Virus record (IMG/VR): IMGVR_UViG_3300037042_003003
Coordinates: 1 to 20,068 of that record
Length of the DNA stretch: 20,068 bases
Strand: one strand, 5' to 3'
From: a virus
This document shows, one piece after another, positions 3,079-12,873 of this stretch. Position numbers and translations under genes: made by a program. The notes beneath the pieces were generated by a model that saw nothing but the letters and a program-made list of their open reading frames with translations, did no database searches and was not told where the DNA came from. Each line of letters opens with the position of its first letter. Within the stretch, counting starts at the first letter, position 1.

Positions 3079-3250
3079 AAAAGCAACCTACGATCAGTGG
3101 GTTGAAAACATGGAATTCATGTACAAACTTATCGGTGAAAAATTTAAACAACCCGTTAAACCTAACGGGAAACCTGAAGATGATGTAGAGATACTGTGGA
3201 ACTGGTATCAAAACTATAACAATAACTTAGCGAAAGAACTTAGAAAATGA
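3062..3250 (+). CDS. hypothetical protein, 62 aa
   Basis: Mostly helical, rich in Lys, Glu and aromatic residues (YDQWVENMEFMYKLIGEKF; ILWNWYQNYNNNLAKELRK). Overlaps the membrane-protein gene before it and, by ATGA, the gene after it. A 7-bp hairpin with an AACC loop (3152-3169) lies inside. No family recognised. Confidence 0.7.
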   Translation: MTTEYKKATYDQWVENMEFMYKLIGEKFKQPVKPNGKPEDDVEILWNWYQNYNNNLAKELRK

Positions 3251-3639
3251 ATAACCTTATTGCACCAAGCTTGCTGGCAACTAACGTACTAAAAGCGTAC
3301 GAGTTTCAATACGATACGATTACAAACGTTGAGTTTTTCATCACTGAAAACGGACGCACCAAACATAGAGCAACCATCAATGGCAACATAACCGTTGATC
3401 TATACATGCACTATGAAGTGATGACGGCTGCACATTTCAAAATAACAATCAATGTCTATAACAATACATGGACATTAAAAACTAACGGTTACCTTGACGA
3501 AGTTAATGTCGAATACACAAATGAAACAATCAAAGATACGTATGACTATCTTGATCTCAAAGAATGGATAAACAACTTTGTTGATACTGTTTATCAAGCA
3601 AAATGCGTAGAAAAACACGGCTTTGTAATCGTTCCTTAA
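3247..3639 (+). CDS. hypothetical protein, 130 aa, beta-rich
   Basis: The start overlaps the previous stop as ATGA. The strand-rich centre (RATINGNITVDLYMHYEV, then HFKITINVYNN) resembles in layout the centre of the 163-residue protein at 4587-5078 (ELNGHLIKMQYTLRFEV), so the two may be distant relatives; this is a weak visual resemblance. A helix near the C-terminus (LKEWINNFVDTVYQAKC) follows. The first pseudoknot element begins six bases after its stop codon. Confidence 0.75.
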   Translation: MNNLIAPSLLATNVLKAYEFQYDTITNVEFFITENGRTKHRATINGNITVDLYMHYEVMTAAHFKITINVYNNTWTLKTNGYLDEVNVEYTNETIKDTYDYLDLKEWINNFVDTVYQAKCVEKHGFVIVP

Positions 3640-3645
3640 ACACAT

Positions 3646-3674
3646 GTGAGGGATGCGACTCACTAACAACGCAT
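3646..3674 (+). promoter_or_regulatory. intercistronic RNA pseudoknot element, copy 1
   Basis: Stem 1 pairs GTGAG 3646-3650 with CTCAC 3659-3663. Stem 2 pairs ATGCG 3653-3657, inside the loop of stem 1, with CGCAT 3670-3674. Connecting loops are GG, A and TAACAA, dimensions that suit an H-type pseudoknot. In this copy the outermost stem 2 pair is A-T. It begins 6 bases after the stop of 3247-3639 and ends 13 bases before ATG 3688. Confidence 0.8.
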
Positions 3675-3687
3675 GAAAGAGAACACA

Positions 3688-4029
3688 ATGATAGACCTAA
3701 CACATCACAGGATGCTTATCCTGAACTTCGCATACCTTCACATCCACCCCGGTGGTGGATACGAAGGACTCATCAAATTGAGACCAAGTTTTCAACGTAA
3801 ACTAGATTTCGTAAGCCGTACAAATCTTGCCGAACTCATGGACTTTGCTGATGCTCATGTTCCTCATGACACACGCAATGCCAAAGGTTTTGAAGACTGG
3901 ATTCAAAGAGAGCCGACGGAAGAAGAAACCGTGTTGTTTGATACATGGGTGTCAGCAATCACACCGATGCCACGAACTGTAATACATGCACCCGTAGGGT
4001 GGGAAGAGGTAGATACAAGTAATGGCTAG
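3688..4029 (+). CDS. hypothetical protein, 113 aa, downstream of pseudoknot 1
   Basis: I choose ATG 3688 rather than the in-frame ATG 3673. The latter lies inside the pseudoknot, and all four genes behind this element start at an ACAATG 13-25 bases after it. There is no Shine-Dalgarno (GAAAGAG only). The protein starts MIDLTHHRMLILNFAYLHIH and has an acidic, helical C-terminal half. Not recognised. Overlaps the next gene by 8 bases. Confidence 0.75.
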   Translation: MIDLTHHRMLILNFAYLHIHPGGGYEGLIKLRPSFQRKLDFVSRTNLAELMDFADAHVPHDTRNAKGFEDWIQREPTEEETVLFDTWVSAITPMPRTVIHAPVGWEEVDTSNG

Positions 4030-4273
4030 ATATACATATCAAAACCAAGCGTTTGACTTTAAGGGCCGAGAAATCGGCCCTGTTTCTGTCTTTAATAAAG
4101 CCGCAGAAGCAAGAAGTGACGCTAGCGTTAGAGTGGCTCTGCAAATACAAATTTGGCAGATAAGAATCTATCGATGTCTTGAACACACTTATGACTTCAA
4201 ACCATACATGATGGTTTACGTCAATATAGTCACAAATAAAGTTAGGTGCAGCAAAAGGAAATTTTTTAAATGA
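4022..4273 (+). CDS. hypothetical protein, 83 aa, basic
   Basis: Has GGAAGAGG about 10 bases before ATG 4022. The protein has a net positive C-terminus (VRCSKRKFFK) and a central QIWQIRIYRCLEHTYDF stretch. Not recognised. Two perfect 7-bp hairpins lie inside: 4063-4080 with a GAAA loop and 4199-4217 with a 5-base loop. Overlaps the following gene by ATGA. Confidence 0.7.
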   Translation: MARYTYQNQAFDFKGREIGPVSVFNKAAEARSDASVRVALQIQIWQIRIYRCLEHTYDFKPYMMVYVNIVTNKVRCSKRKFFK

Positions 4274-4533
4274 GATTTGTACCAGTAGTTTTATACGGGT
4301 CACTTGTACTTGAGAAGTTATTAATAGAAAAATTAATAACAAAAGATCATTATGATCATATGTGGGAAAGATTTGCAGCTTTTAGTAACCCACTTAATTA
4401 TGTGTTAATTGATCTTGATGAAATAACTCTTAATCTTGAACAAGTTGAAACCGAAATGATAATGAATTACTTGCGAGCCGATGAAAACATTACCGATGAC
4501 GAATTCTCTTTCACCGTCAAACTCGCTATCTAA
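4270..4533 (+). CDS. hypothetical protein, 87 aa, acidic
   Basis: Start overlaps the preceding TGA as ATGA, with AAAAGGA 12 bases upstream. The protein is strongly acidic and helical (EKLLIEKLITKDHYDHMWERF; EITLNLEQVETEMIMNYL). No family recognised. It contains a perfect 9-bp inverted repeat (GTTATTAAT 4317-4325 with ATTAATAAC 4332-4340). Pseudoknot copy 2 begins 7 bases after its stop. Confidence 0.7.
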   Translation: MRFVPVVLYGSLVLEKLLIEKLITKDHYDHMWERFAAFSNPLNYVLIDLDEITLNLEQVETEMIMNYLRADENITDDEFSFTVKLAI

Positions 4534-4540
4534 TGTTTGT

Positions 4541-4569
4541 GTGAGGGATGCGTCTCACTAACAACGCAT
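4541..4569 (+). promoter_or_regulatory. intercistronic RNA pseudoknot element, copy 2
   Basis: Stem 1 is GTGAG 4541-4545 with CTCAC 4554-4558; stem 2 is ATGCG 4548-4552 with CGCAT 4565-4569; loops are GG, T and TAACAA. It differs from copy 1 only at the single joining base (T for A) within the 29-base element. The downstream start codon is at 4587, after an A-rich leader without a ribosome site. Confidence 0.8.
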
Positions 4570-4586
4570 AGAAAAGAAACAAAACA

Positions 4587-5078
4587 ATGTCAGTAGAATT
4601 ATACACAACGTATTTCCGTAACAGCTGCCTCGCTATCCCTGCCAAAATTGAAGACGGCACAATGACTTCATATGGTAATTATCACACTACCGAACACACA
4701 GATACTATTGAACTTAACGGGCATCTCATAAAGATGCAATATACTTTGAGATTTGAGGTATCAGACAGAGACACTAGAACGCTGCATCAAACGCCTCTGG
4801 TTCAGATTGAAATAGAGTTTGTAGCTCGTCCGTGGAAGGATAGTCCGGGGACGTCTTCAACCATGAAAAAAATCATTAAAGTTGAGATTAATGCTGAGAC
4901 GCTTGAAGAGCAGATTGATGAAGCAATCCAAACACTGGAGCGCGTTATTGTAGAGGTCAAACTACCTAGCGTTAACTTCGACTTTTGGAAGTATGTATCT
5001 AGCTCAATGCCTGACTTTGAGAAGCAGGTCAAGTATGCATGTGTCAATAACAATAACCGATTGTCCCTCGTGGACTAG
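4587..5078 (+). CDS. hypothetical protein, 163 aa, downstream of pseudoknot 2
   Basis: The leader GAAAAGAAACAAAACA before ATG 4587 has no GG and so no Shine-Dalgarno. The N-terminal 90 residues are beta-rich (TDTIELNGHLIKMQYTLRFEV, LVQIEIEFVARPW). A helical segment follows (INAETLEEQIDEAIQTLERV). Not recognised; weakly similar in layout to the protein at 3247-3639. Pseudoknot copy 3 starts 7 bases after the stop. Confidence 0.8.
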   Translation: MSVELYTTYFRNSCLAIPAKIEDGTMTSYGNYHTTEHTDTIELNGHLIKMQYTLRFEVSDRDTRTLHQTPLVQIEIEFVARPWKDSPGTSSTMKKIIKVEINAETLEEQIDEAIQTLERVIVEVKLPSVNFDFWKYVSSSMPDFEKQVKYACVNNNNRLSLVD

Positions 5079-5084
5079 TTAGAT

Positions 5085-5113
5085 GTGAGGGGTGCGACTC
5101 ACTAACAACGCAC
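5085..5113 (+). promoter_or_regulatory. intercistronic RNA pseudoknot element, copy 3
   Basis: Stem 1 is GTGAG 5085-5089 with CTCAC 5098-5102. Stem 2 is GTGCG 5092-5096 with CGCAC 5109-5113; loops are GG, A and TAACAA. Compared with copies 1 and 2, the first stem 2 base changes from A to G and its partner 17 bases later from T to C, keeping the pair. Confidence 0.82.
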
Positions 5114-5127
5114 AGAAAGACAACACA

Positions 5128-5379
5128 ATGTCAATAGGAACAGCTGAATACATCCGCTTTTACATATATAGAGATTGTCCTGCATACTCGTTTCCTCCAT
5201 GTGTATATGGGCACAACGCATGCTCATGCACTGATGAGGCTGGCGGTCCATGTATCAATGAAGCAGAGGCAGACAACGACCAGTCCGTAAACGTTTTTGA
5301 AGCATCTCGAATCATCGATTCCGTATACGTCAAAAATAACGACAACTACGAATTATTAATAATAGATGATGAAAATTAA
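5128..5379 (+). CDS. hypothetical protein, 83 aa, cysteine-bearing, downstream of pseudoknot 3
   Basis: ATG 5128 is preferred over the in-frame ATG 5092, which lies inside the pseudoknot; no ribosome site is present (AGAAAGACAACACA). The N-terminal half has five cysteines (CPAY, PPCVYGHNACSCTD, GGPCI), suggesting a small metal-bound or disulfide knuckle. The C-terminal half is acidic. Not recognised. Confidence 0.72.
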   Translation: MSIGTAEYIRFYIYRDCPAYSFPPCVYGHNACSCTDEAGGPCINEAEADNDQSVNVFEASRIIDSVYVKNNDNYELLIIDDEN

Positions 5380-5401
5380 TAGATAAAAAAAGGTACACAC
5401 A

Positions 5402-5665
5402 ATGAAATACACAGAGCCAACGTTTCGTAATCTAGTAGATCAAATGTTCGATAAAACCATGGGGATAACTACTGCTGACTTACCTGATTGGAGTCTTTGG
5501 GAATACTTTGACCTTGAATACGATTACACTCAAAAAGAAATCAACGAATGTGTTCAACAAGCATTCATTGATGGGTTGGTGGAAGCTGATGCTCCAAGCG
5601 ATTTACTGATTGAAATAATGCAAGACGTAATAAAACTACAAACTAACACACTAGGAGAGATTTAA
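5402..5665 (+). CDS. hypothetical protein, 87 aa, acidic
   Basis: Start ATG 5402 follows AAAAAAAGG and the recurrent ACACAATG context. A highly acidic, helical protein (DLEYDYTQKEINECVQQAFI; LLIEIMQDVIKL). Acidic small phage proteins can mimic DNA, but no motif supports that here. Two bases separate it from the next gene. Confidence 0.75.
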   Translation: MKYTEPTFRNLVDQMFDKTMGITTADLPDWSLWEYFDLEYDYTQKEINECVQQAFIDGLVEADAPSDLLIEIMQDVIKLQTNTLGEI

Positions 5666-5667
5666 CT

Positions 5668-6045
5668 ATGAATACCTGCTACGGCTGGACTAATTACGCA
5701 ACATGGTTGTTTTATCTGCATTATCAACAGGAAGTAGAGAACTGGTATCAAGACTATGATGACGAACAACGTGAACATCTTGATGAGTCAGATCTTCAAA
5801 GTTACTTTGAAGAGATGTATGGCGAAATGATTTGGAGCATTGCAAATATCTATCTCACTGATGAAATCGGTAAAATCTATCTCACTGATGTAATCGGTAA
5901 TGAGATGCGTGAAATCAACTGGAGGGAAATACTAAAAACACTACGCGAAGATGACGAGCCTATCGTTGACAGTTGGACGGAAGAAACCGCATTGTCAAAT
6001 TCTCTTGATCATGTTGCAGAAAACAAAAATAAAGAAAGAAACTAA
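5668..6045 (+). CDS. phage protein with GWTNYATW N-terminus, 125 aa
   Basis: The N-terminus CYGWTNYATWLFYLHYQQEV matches a motif (GWxNYxTW followed by a short helix) that recurs in a small, functionally unknown phage protein family, which I believe is catalogued as DUF7249. The rest is very acidic and helical. A strong AGGAGA precedes ATG 5668. The protein contains an in-frame 9-residue duplication (IYLTDEIGK/IYLTDVIGN), encoded by the 27-bp tandem repeat at 5848-5901. The stop codon overlaps the next start (TAATG). Confidence 0.75.
   Translation: MNTCYGWTNYATWLFYLHYQQEVENWYQDYDDEQREHLDESDLQSYFEEMYGEMIWSIANIYLTDEIGKIYLTDVIGNEMREINWREILKTLREDDEPIVDSWTEETALSNSLDHVAENKNKERN
5848..5901 (+). repeat. 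27-bp tandem duplication inside a CDS
   Basis: Two units of 27 bases (5848-5874 and 5875-5901) differ at about two positions (GAAATC versus GTAATC, and the last base). The length is a multiple of three, so the reading frame is kept. This is a recent slippage-type duplication. Confidence 0.85.
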
Positions 6046-6365
6046 TGACACATTTCCAATGCCTTAACGCAAAATTAGTTGCAGAACTGCTTACATGTCT
6101 GCACAACTCACCGACTTTTGACACACTCCAAACCTACGTCTACAATCAATCGTACGCTGATCTTGGCGAATTACTTAGTCAGTTTCATCCTATGATTGAT
6201 GGTTTACAATTTTGTATTGGAAAAGTGGACGGCCACAACGCCTTTGAAGAGATTGTCCTTGACATATTAAATCAAGTCTTTGAGTATTACTTCTGTCGGC
6301 CCGGTGATCTATACGACGCTGAAAAAATGTTTGAGAAGTTTTGCGCGCGTTCGTCAAATTCGTAA
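6045..6365 (+). CDS. hypothetical protein, 106 aa
   Basis: ATG 6045 shares its A with the previous TAA stop. The protein is mixed helical with scattered cysteines (FQCLNAKLVAELLTCLH; FEYYFCRPGDLYDAEKMFEKF). No recognisable family or membrane segment. Pseudoknot copy 4 starts 11 bases after its stop. Confidence 0.75.
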   Translation: MTHFQCLNAKLVAELLTCLHNSPTFDTLQTYVYNQSYADLGELLSQFHPMIDGLQFCIGKVDGHNAFEEIVLDILNQVFEYYFCRPGDLYDAEKMFEKFCARSSNS

Positions 6366-6376
6366 CCATTGTTGAT

Positions 6377-6405
6377 GTGAGGGGTGCGTCTCACTAACAA
6401 CGCAC
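6377..6405 (+). promoter_or_regulatory. intercistronic RNA pseudoknot element, copy 4
   Basis: Stem 1 is GTGAG 6377-6381 with CTCAC 6390-6394; stem 2 is GTGCG 6384-6388 with CGCAC 6401-6405; loops are GG, T and TAACAA. It carries the G-C version of the covarying pair. The leader to ATG 6431 is the longest of the four (25 bases) and contains no GG. Confidence 0.82.
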
Positions 6406-6430: not shown

Positions 6431-6673
6431 ATGAAAAAATTAAAACTCGTGTCTGTTCCAATGTTTAATGCTCCCGGCGTACTGCGTTGGGCACGCCACT
6501 TTTATCGCATGACTAACTGCTCAGGTAAAGATAAGAAATATTTCTTGGGCGTAATGCGTGCTTGGGTACAACGAGATGCTAAGTATTGTCTTGAATGCGC
6601 AGACGAATTCATTGAATGGAATGTCAATGAAGAGTTTGTAACAATCACGGTCGATAGAAGGAAAAAGAAATGA
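6431..6673 (+). CDS. hypothetical protein, 80 aa, basic, downstream of pseudoknot 4
   Basis: The start is ATG 6431 in the AACACAATG context, with only AGTAAAGAAA upstream. The protein is basic and aromatic (VLRWARHFYRM, KDKKYFLGVMRAWVQRD) and ends VDRRKKK, so nucleic-acid binding is possible. Not recognised. Overlaps the next gene by ATGA. Confidence 0.75.
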   Translation: MKKLKLVSVPMFNAPGVLRWARHFYRMTNCSGKDKKYFLGVMRAWVQRDAKYCLECADEFIEWNVNEEFVTITVDRRKKK

Positions 6674-12779: not shown

Positions 12780-12853
12780 CTTCGTAAATATATTCAAACG
12801 AAGTGATCTACCAACAACAAACAGGCCACGGTGTTAAAATCCGTGGTCTTTTT
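12780..12853 (+). ncRNA. candidate structured leader or small RNA, about 74 nt
   Basis: A 5' hairpin (CTTCGT 12780-12785 with ACGAAG 12798-12803) is followed by an unstructured CA-rich linker (CTACCAACAACAAACA) and then the terminator hairpin with its T-run. This is the layout of a small regulatory RNA or an attenuated leader. No reading frame of note lies in this 103-base gap. Confidence 0.45.
12824..12853 (+). terminator. rho-independent terminator before the replication genes
   Basis: An 8-bp stem with one G-T pair (GGCCACGG 12824-12831, CCGTGGTC 12841-12848) is followed by TTTTT (12849-12853). The next start codon is only 20 bases away, too close for a promoter between them, so transcripts reaching the replication genes must pass through it. 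Confidence 0.8.
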
Positions 12854-12873
12854 GTATCACTAAAGGAAAAACA

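Follow-up and report, generated by a model that had tools for sequence, protein, structure and literature searches.

Short H-type pseudoknots that follow the stop codons of particular phage genes and may act at the 3' ends of their messages

The DNA analysed here is the virus record IMGVR_UViG_3300037042_003003, all 20,068 nucleotides (nt) of which are referred to as the window; matches to a DnaB-type helicase and weak matches to Mu Gam-like proteins were found among its genes. Four intergenic gaps in the window each contain a 29-nt element on the coding (+) strand, for which a first-pass annotation had proposed a pseudoknot. Its pattern was matched without mismatch at exactly four places, and none of 100 dinucleotide-preserving shuffles of the window gave a match. 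In copy 1 (3646-3674), GTGAG/CTCAC forms stem 1 and ATGCG/CGCAT forms stem 2, with GG, A, and TAACAA as loops 1, 2, and 3. The other copies fit the same pattern exactly, with stem 2 ATGCG/CGCAT and loop 2 T in copy 2 (4541-4569), stem 2 GTGCG/CGCAC and loop 2 A in copy 3 (5085-5113), and stem 2 GTGCG/CGCAC and loop 2 T in copy 4 (6377-6405). The outer pair of stem 2 is A-T in copies 1 and 2 and G-C in copies 3 and 4, as had been reported. The copies are singles, 544 to 1,292 nt apart from start to start, and do not form a tandem array.

When folding was restricted to hairpins, stem 1 was predicted (approximately -7 kcal/mol), and stem 2 was predicted when it was offered alone. Because the two stems interleave, their simultaneous formation requires a pseudoknot. 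With 5 bp in each stem and loops of 2, 1, and 6 nt, the element has the usual geometry of the H type. There was no U run behind any of the four copies on the coding strand, and thus the knot is not an intrinsic terminator.

In order to evaluate the fold by comparison, relatives of the window phage were collected with three pattern scans of IMG/VR. The phage group of the window comprised 92 knot copies in 42 loci, corresponding to 38 records including the window, with four pairs of loci on shared contigs. Records of 60 to 67 kb in this group had two or three copies each, in a single orientation. The outer pair of stem 2 was G-C in 56 of the 92 copies, A-U in 18, and G-U in 18; A-C was never observed, versus approximately 11 expected if the two sides varied independently. 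Scans in which stem 1 was left free recovered unrelated phages with stem 1 replaced yet fully paired: GGGAG/CTCCC, AGGAG/CTCCT, GGTAG/CTACC, GGTGG/CCACC, AAAGG/CCTTT, CAAGG/CCTTG, CGCAG/CTGCG, CAGAG/CTCTG, GGCAG/CTGCC, and CTGAG/CTCAG. A control scan in which the outer pair was set to C..G yielded 21 matches, none of them with a fully paired stem 1, whereas 14 of 120 matches had one when U-A was changed to C-G within stem 2 (GCGCG/CGCGC).

Among 33 distinct sequences, 100% of cells were paired, with 60 double changes and covariation in both stems, although the search patterns had fixed most of stem 2 and loop 1 and the rows found by pattern had been selected for a fully paired stem 1, so that the conservation of these parts is overstated. 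Controls in which the partners were shifted by one to three columns were 19 to 52% paired. Two interleaved stems, each maintained by compensatory change, are thus present, and this covariation confirms, as far as comparison of sequences can, that the element is an H-type pseudoknot, which bears out the compensatory change first noticed among the four copies.

The knot had been described as matching no named element, and this held up: there was no match to Rfam covariance models, which ignore the crossing stem of a pseudoknot in scoring, and a BLAST search of named phages with the motif gave weak matches and no convincing copy. Matches in S-RIM2 were rejected as antisense to genes. Matches to the strict GTGAG core in bacterial genomes look like chance, the second arm of stem 2 being missing, and none of 396 genomes from a single bacterial phylum contained the strict core. 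The phage pseudoknot family is real, widely distributed, and apparently undescribed in open PubMed Central papers, the literature searched, where absence does not prove novelty. A possible sub-type with loop 1 GGG, loop 2 CAT, and a stem 1 of 3 to 4 bp was seen in loci L117, L118, L124, L115, L137, and L139, mostly ahead of start codons.

The position of the knot relative to its neighbors differed greatly between its two sides. Within the phage group of the window, the gap from the upstream stop codon to the knot was 5, 6, 7, or 8 nt in 88 of 89 cases, and the distance from the knot to the next ATG varied widely. Three upstream gene families were followed by a knot in 85 of 86 cases (34/34, 32/32, and 19/20 for families 0, 1, and 3, respectively), whereas the knot preceded 52 of 122 members of eight downstream families. 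Family 0 with its knot was followed by at least six different downstream families. Knot identity was 93 to 96%, versus 43 to 55% for the 30-nt flanks, and the family 0 proteins were 28 to 69% identical to the member in the window. At site 2, both neighbors of the knot are invariant (family 1 ahead, family 0 behind), and this site is uninformative as to an upstream or a downstream link. At the level of gene order, these comparisons show that the knot is attached to the upstream gene and that the downstream genes are interchangeable. Because the knot tracks the upstream gene while the downstream genes change freely, the data do not favor a 5' operator for the latter.

In the window, copy 1 lies 6 nt past the stop codon of a family 3 gene (3247-3639, + strand; 130 amino acids [aa]), and copy 2 lies 7 nt past that of a family 1 gene (4270-4533, +; 87 aa). 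The family 0 gene (4587-5078, +; 163 aa) is downstream of copy 2 and ends 6 nt before copy 3. The gene ahead of copy 4 (6045-6365, +; 106 aa) was found in this record only and stops 11 nt before the knot. The genes downstream of copies 1, 3, and 4 are at 3688-4029, 5128-5379, and 6431-6673 (all +), respectively; the starts at 3688 and 5128 are probable, and the gene behind copy 4 belongs to family 6, of which 8 of 21 members in the phage group are preceded by a knot. A profile search of the genes around the window knots gave no family match and, in particular, no single-strand-binding protein (SSB) and no toxin family. The flanking genes had been considered unrelated, and by sequence they are: no similarity was found between the upstream families of copies 1 and 3, and profile-profile comparison gave no homology. 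AlphaFold models of these two proteins (3247-3639 and 4587-5078) qualify that claim, in that both have a similar helix, four-strand, helix order; a fold search with the two families gave no PDB match below an E value of 0.001. The further claim that gene duplication played no part was too strong for copies 1 to 3, which lie in conserved upstream families, so that a knot may have been duplicated together with its upstream gene. A separate 27-nt in-frame tandem duplication (5845-5898) was noted within the 125-aa gene at 5668-6045.

A PrimPol-like protein encoded behind the knot in several loci served as the query for a search that did not use the RNA motif and that returned 80 loci. The gene order in this group is a DUF669/SSB-like gene, the knot, a tRNA-like structure, and PrimPol. 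Strict descriptors placed a knot of the window type between the DUF669/SSB-like gene and PrimPol in 34 loci and a second type in 21 loci. The second type, X4-C-TGnnnnA-N-X4'-..AAAC-TnnnnCA, covaries in both stems, as in AGAC-C-TGAGCCA-C-GTCT-TAAAAC-TGGCTCA between the SSB-like gene and PrimPol (L176-L234), and it interchanges with the window type; a general pseudoknot scan found several additional knots of this type in the group. Within nearly identical flanks, L210-L212 have one knot type, whereas L213, L214, and L227 have the other, which argues for conservation of the fold more than of the sequence. In L308, SSB family phrog_378 is matched by the gene that precedes the knot, and L266 and L115 gave weak matches to families that the SSB-like proteins also match.

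The gap from stop codon to knot is often larger in the PrimPol group, with tRNA-like or tRNA sequence behind the knot. In the 55 loci of this group that were scanned, a GTTCGATTC-like T-arm lies behind the knot, with a CTCCTT loop in 45 of 55 and acceptor-like pairing in 51 of 55, the latter an upper estimate because many registers were tried. ARAGORN and Rfam did not call this stretch a tRNA; true tRNA genes follow in some loci. An origin of the knot from pseudoknot PK1 of tmRNA was considered, the loci with knot and T-arm being tmRNA-like, and was rejected: no tmRNA was called by ARAGORN or Rfam, and such a core was missing from the few tmRNAs inspected. In L159-L234, the tRNA-like structure upstream of PrimPol (e.g., L197:2900-2985) has a large loop at the anticodon position that contains CTCCTTTC, a sequence that resembles the 3' end of 16S rRNA. 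It shows complementarity to the Shine-Dalgarno region of the PrimPol gene that comes next, and the loop may either mask that site or serve as an anti-Shine-Dalgarno RNA.

The explanation that we tentatively favor, at somewhat less than an even chance, is that the pseudoknot blocks 3'-to-5' exonucleases from within a 3' untranslated region (UTR) and thereby stabilizes the upstream message. Each 29-nt knot would be part of the 3' UTR of the upstream gene, and it does lie behind the stop codon of the gene that it would serve. The A-rich third loop would occupy the minor groove of stem 1, and the compact knot would stop 3'-to-5' exoribonucleases. Cleavage would fall in the A-rich spacer behind the knot or, in the relatives, in the tRNA-like structure; processing of the latter would place the knot at the 3' end, as in MALAT1. 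The upstream message, its 3' end sealed by the knot, would then outlast the remaining operon. Various knot sequences would be equally serviceable, matching the observed interchange. A structural element at the 3' end would explain why the knot is linked to the upstream gene, why knot types interchange, and why the knot stands ahead of the tRNA-like structure.

For the unrelated phage lineages, a more specific proposal, possible but on the doubtful side, is a MALAT1-like device in which RNase P would cut at the tRNA-like structure and an interchangeable knot would seal the mRNA of an SSB or other early gene; the window knot, with no tRNA-like part, would be an operon-internal stabilizer. If exonuclease blocking is correct, phages would have a movable, testable 29-nt module for setting how long individual messages of an operon last, and if the RNase P proposal holds as well, bacterial viruses would have a counterpart of the 3' ends of animal long RNAs, in which a tRNA-like structure is combined with a tertiary fold. 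Furthermore, the family shows that pseudoknots that escape hairpin-based RNA searches can be widespread in uncultured phages.

Several observations weigh against a 3'-end block. A knot 5 to 8 nt past the stop codon would touch the terminating ribosome, a closeness that a pure exonuclease block does not need. The knots in L099, L114, L124, and L139 are at least 40 nt from an upstream stop codon or have no upstream gene, and they lie approximately 15 to 31 nt before a start codon, which gives them the look of a 5' leader. Conservation of stem 2, loop 1, and loop 3 exceeds the needs of a plain roadblock, although most of these positions were fixed by the search. The genomes in the group of the window are related, and the counts above are not independent events. 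Copy 4, found in this record only, could have been carried along with the gene behind it. The close stop spacing and the leader-like lineages leave substantial weight to other explanations.

The close spacing also fits a ribosome insulator, in which a knot located where the mRNA enters the terminating ribosome stops post-termination sliding and reinitiation and so uncouples the genes or slows release. The knot occupies the gap between stop and start, and 5 to 8 nt is the spacing at which pseudoknots affect ribosomes. However, an insulator should depend on the downstream gene, yet the knot tracks the upstream one, and in the PrimPol group the stop gap is often larger and followed by tRNA-like or tRNA sequence. 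We consider an insulator unlikely.

An autogenous or trans operator on the model of T4 gp32 appears rather unlikely; here an SSB-like protein of the phage would bind the knot and coat the A-rich ribosome-binding site that follows. SSB-like genes adjoin knots in several lineages, the leader behind the knot is A-rich, and gp32 provides a precedent with its pseudoknot of approximately 28 nt plus an unstructured region (PMC535899). The placement like that of T4 gene 32 raised in the first-pass annotation was not borne out, in that the SSB-like genes recognized by profile are upstream of the knot, and no SSB was recognized beside the window copies. The downstream proteins in L057 and L099 were rejected as SSBs because they matched no SSB profile or PDB entry despite their acidic tails. 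Furthermore, two differing knot sequences interchange.

That annotation had also suggested a translational operator, enhancer, or protective element in the 5' leader of the downstream gene. Consistent with such a role, the start codon is typically approximately 13 to 31 nt past the knot, and some lineages have no near upstream gene. The position just past the upstream stop and the nearly invariant association with upstream families argue against it, as do downstream genes that are exchangeable and often knot-free, and we consider a leader element unlikely. It is improbable that the knot is a decoy antitoxin, which would imitate a type III antitoxin RNA and so inhibit a ToxN-like RNase of the host. 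ToxI RNAs are H-type pseudoknots of approximately 34 to 36 nt, and a pseudo-ToxI allows phage TE to escape (PMC3475682, PMC5086642), but here there is no tandem array, the copies are tied to particular gene ends, stem 1 varies freely, and the 396 genomes of one bacterial phylum mentioned above lacked the strict core. Readthrough or frameshifting driven by a post-stop pseudoknot is highly improbable, since gaps of 5, 6, 7, and 8 nt, although within the recoding range, put the knot in all three frames rather than a fixed one, and extension of the 6-nt class meets TAA or TGA in loop 3 in many copies.

Other structured elements were noted in the window. A truncated tRNA-like stretch at 1524-1566 (GGTAG, AGCTGGTGCT, CCGGGGTTCGATTCCCCGG, CTACC) has no anticodon arm and was not called by ARAGORN. 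Two direct copies of GGAGGGGTCGGATTTTACCCCCCTC, each self-complementary, lie in an intergenic region at 2424-2490. A general scan of the window gave one further pseudoknot candidate, at 12820, for which a terminator hairpin with T5 behind it is the better reading: the hairpin GGCCACGG...CCGTGGTC at 12824-12854, followed by TTTTT between the Gam-like gene and the next gene, is probably an intrinsic terminator.

Among known systems, the T4/RB69 gene 32 operator is the nearest phage precedent by shape, with an H-type knot of similar length beside an unstructured A-rich ribosome-binding site in the phage mRNA of an SSB gene. The gene order is different: that knot is 5' of the SSB gene, whereas here the knot comes after an upstream stop codon, any recognized SSB-like gene is upstream, and no SSB gene was recognized beside the window knots. 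The type III antitoxins ToxI and CptI are also short H-type pseudoknots with an adenine-rich loop, but they occur as tandem arrays upstream of a ToxN-like gene; the window knots are not tandem, and no toxin was found among the tested genes beside them. The SAS and ESAS elements of cluster K mycobacteriophages are likewise short conserved sequences repeated in the intergenic gaps of one phage. They are located at start codons (PMC3203893), whereas the distance from the knot to the ATG varies, and ESAS consist of 17-bp inverted repeats around a spacer of variable length rather than interleaved stems.

At the 3' end of MALAT1, a triple helix is followed by the tRNA-like mascRNA, which is cut by RNase P. 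Processing of the tRNA-like part leaves the tertiary fold at the 3' end (PMC12609000). The PrimPol relatives have the same order of message, compact tertiary fold, and putative tRNA-like structure; they differ in that the fold is a classical H-type knot in phage mRNA and a cut by RNase P is only proposed, and nothing tRNA-like lies directly behind the window knots. The window copies themselves resemble the intercistronic REP elements of enteric bacteria in that both are structured RNAs located between the genes of an operon, directly after one of them. REP elements are long chromosomal hairpins that protect the upstream message, and the phage pseudoknots may provide the same kind of protection with a different fold.

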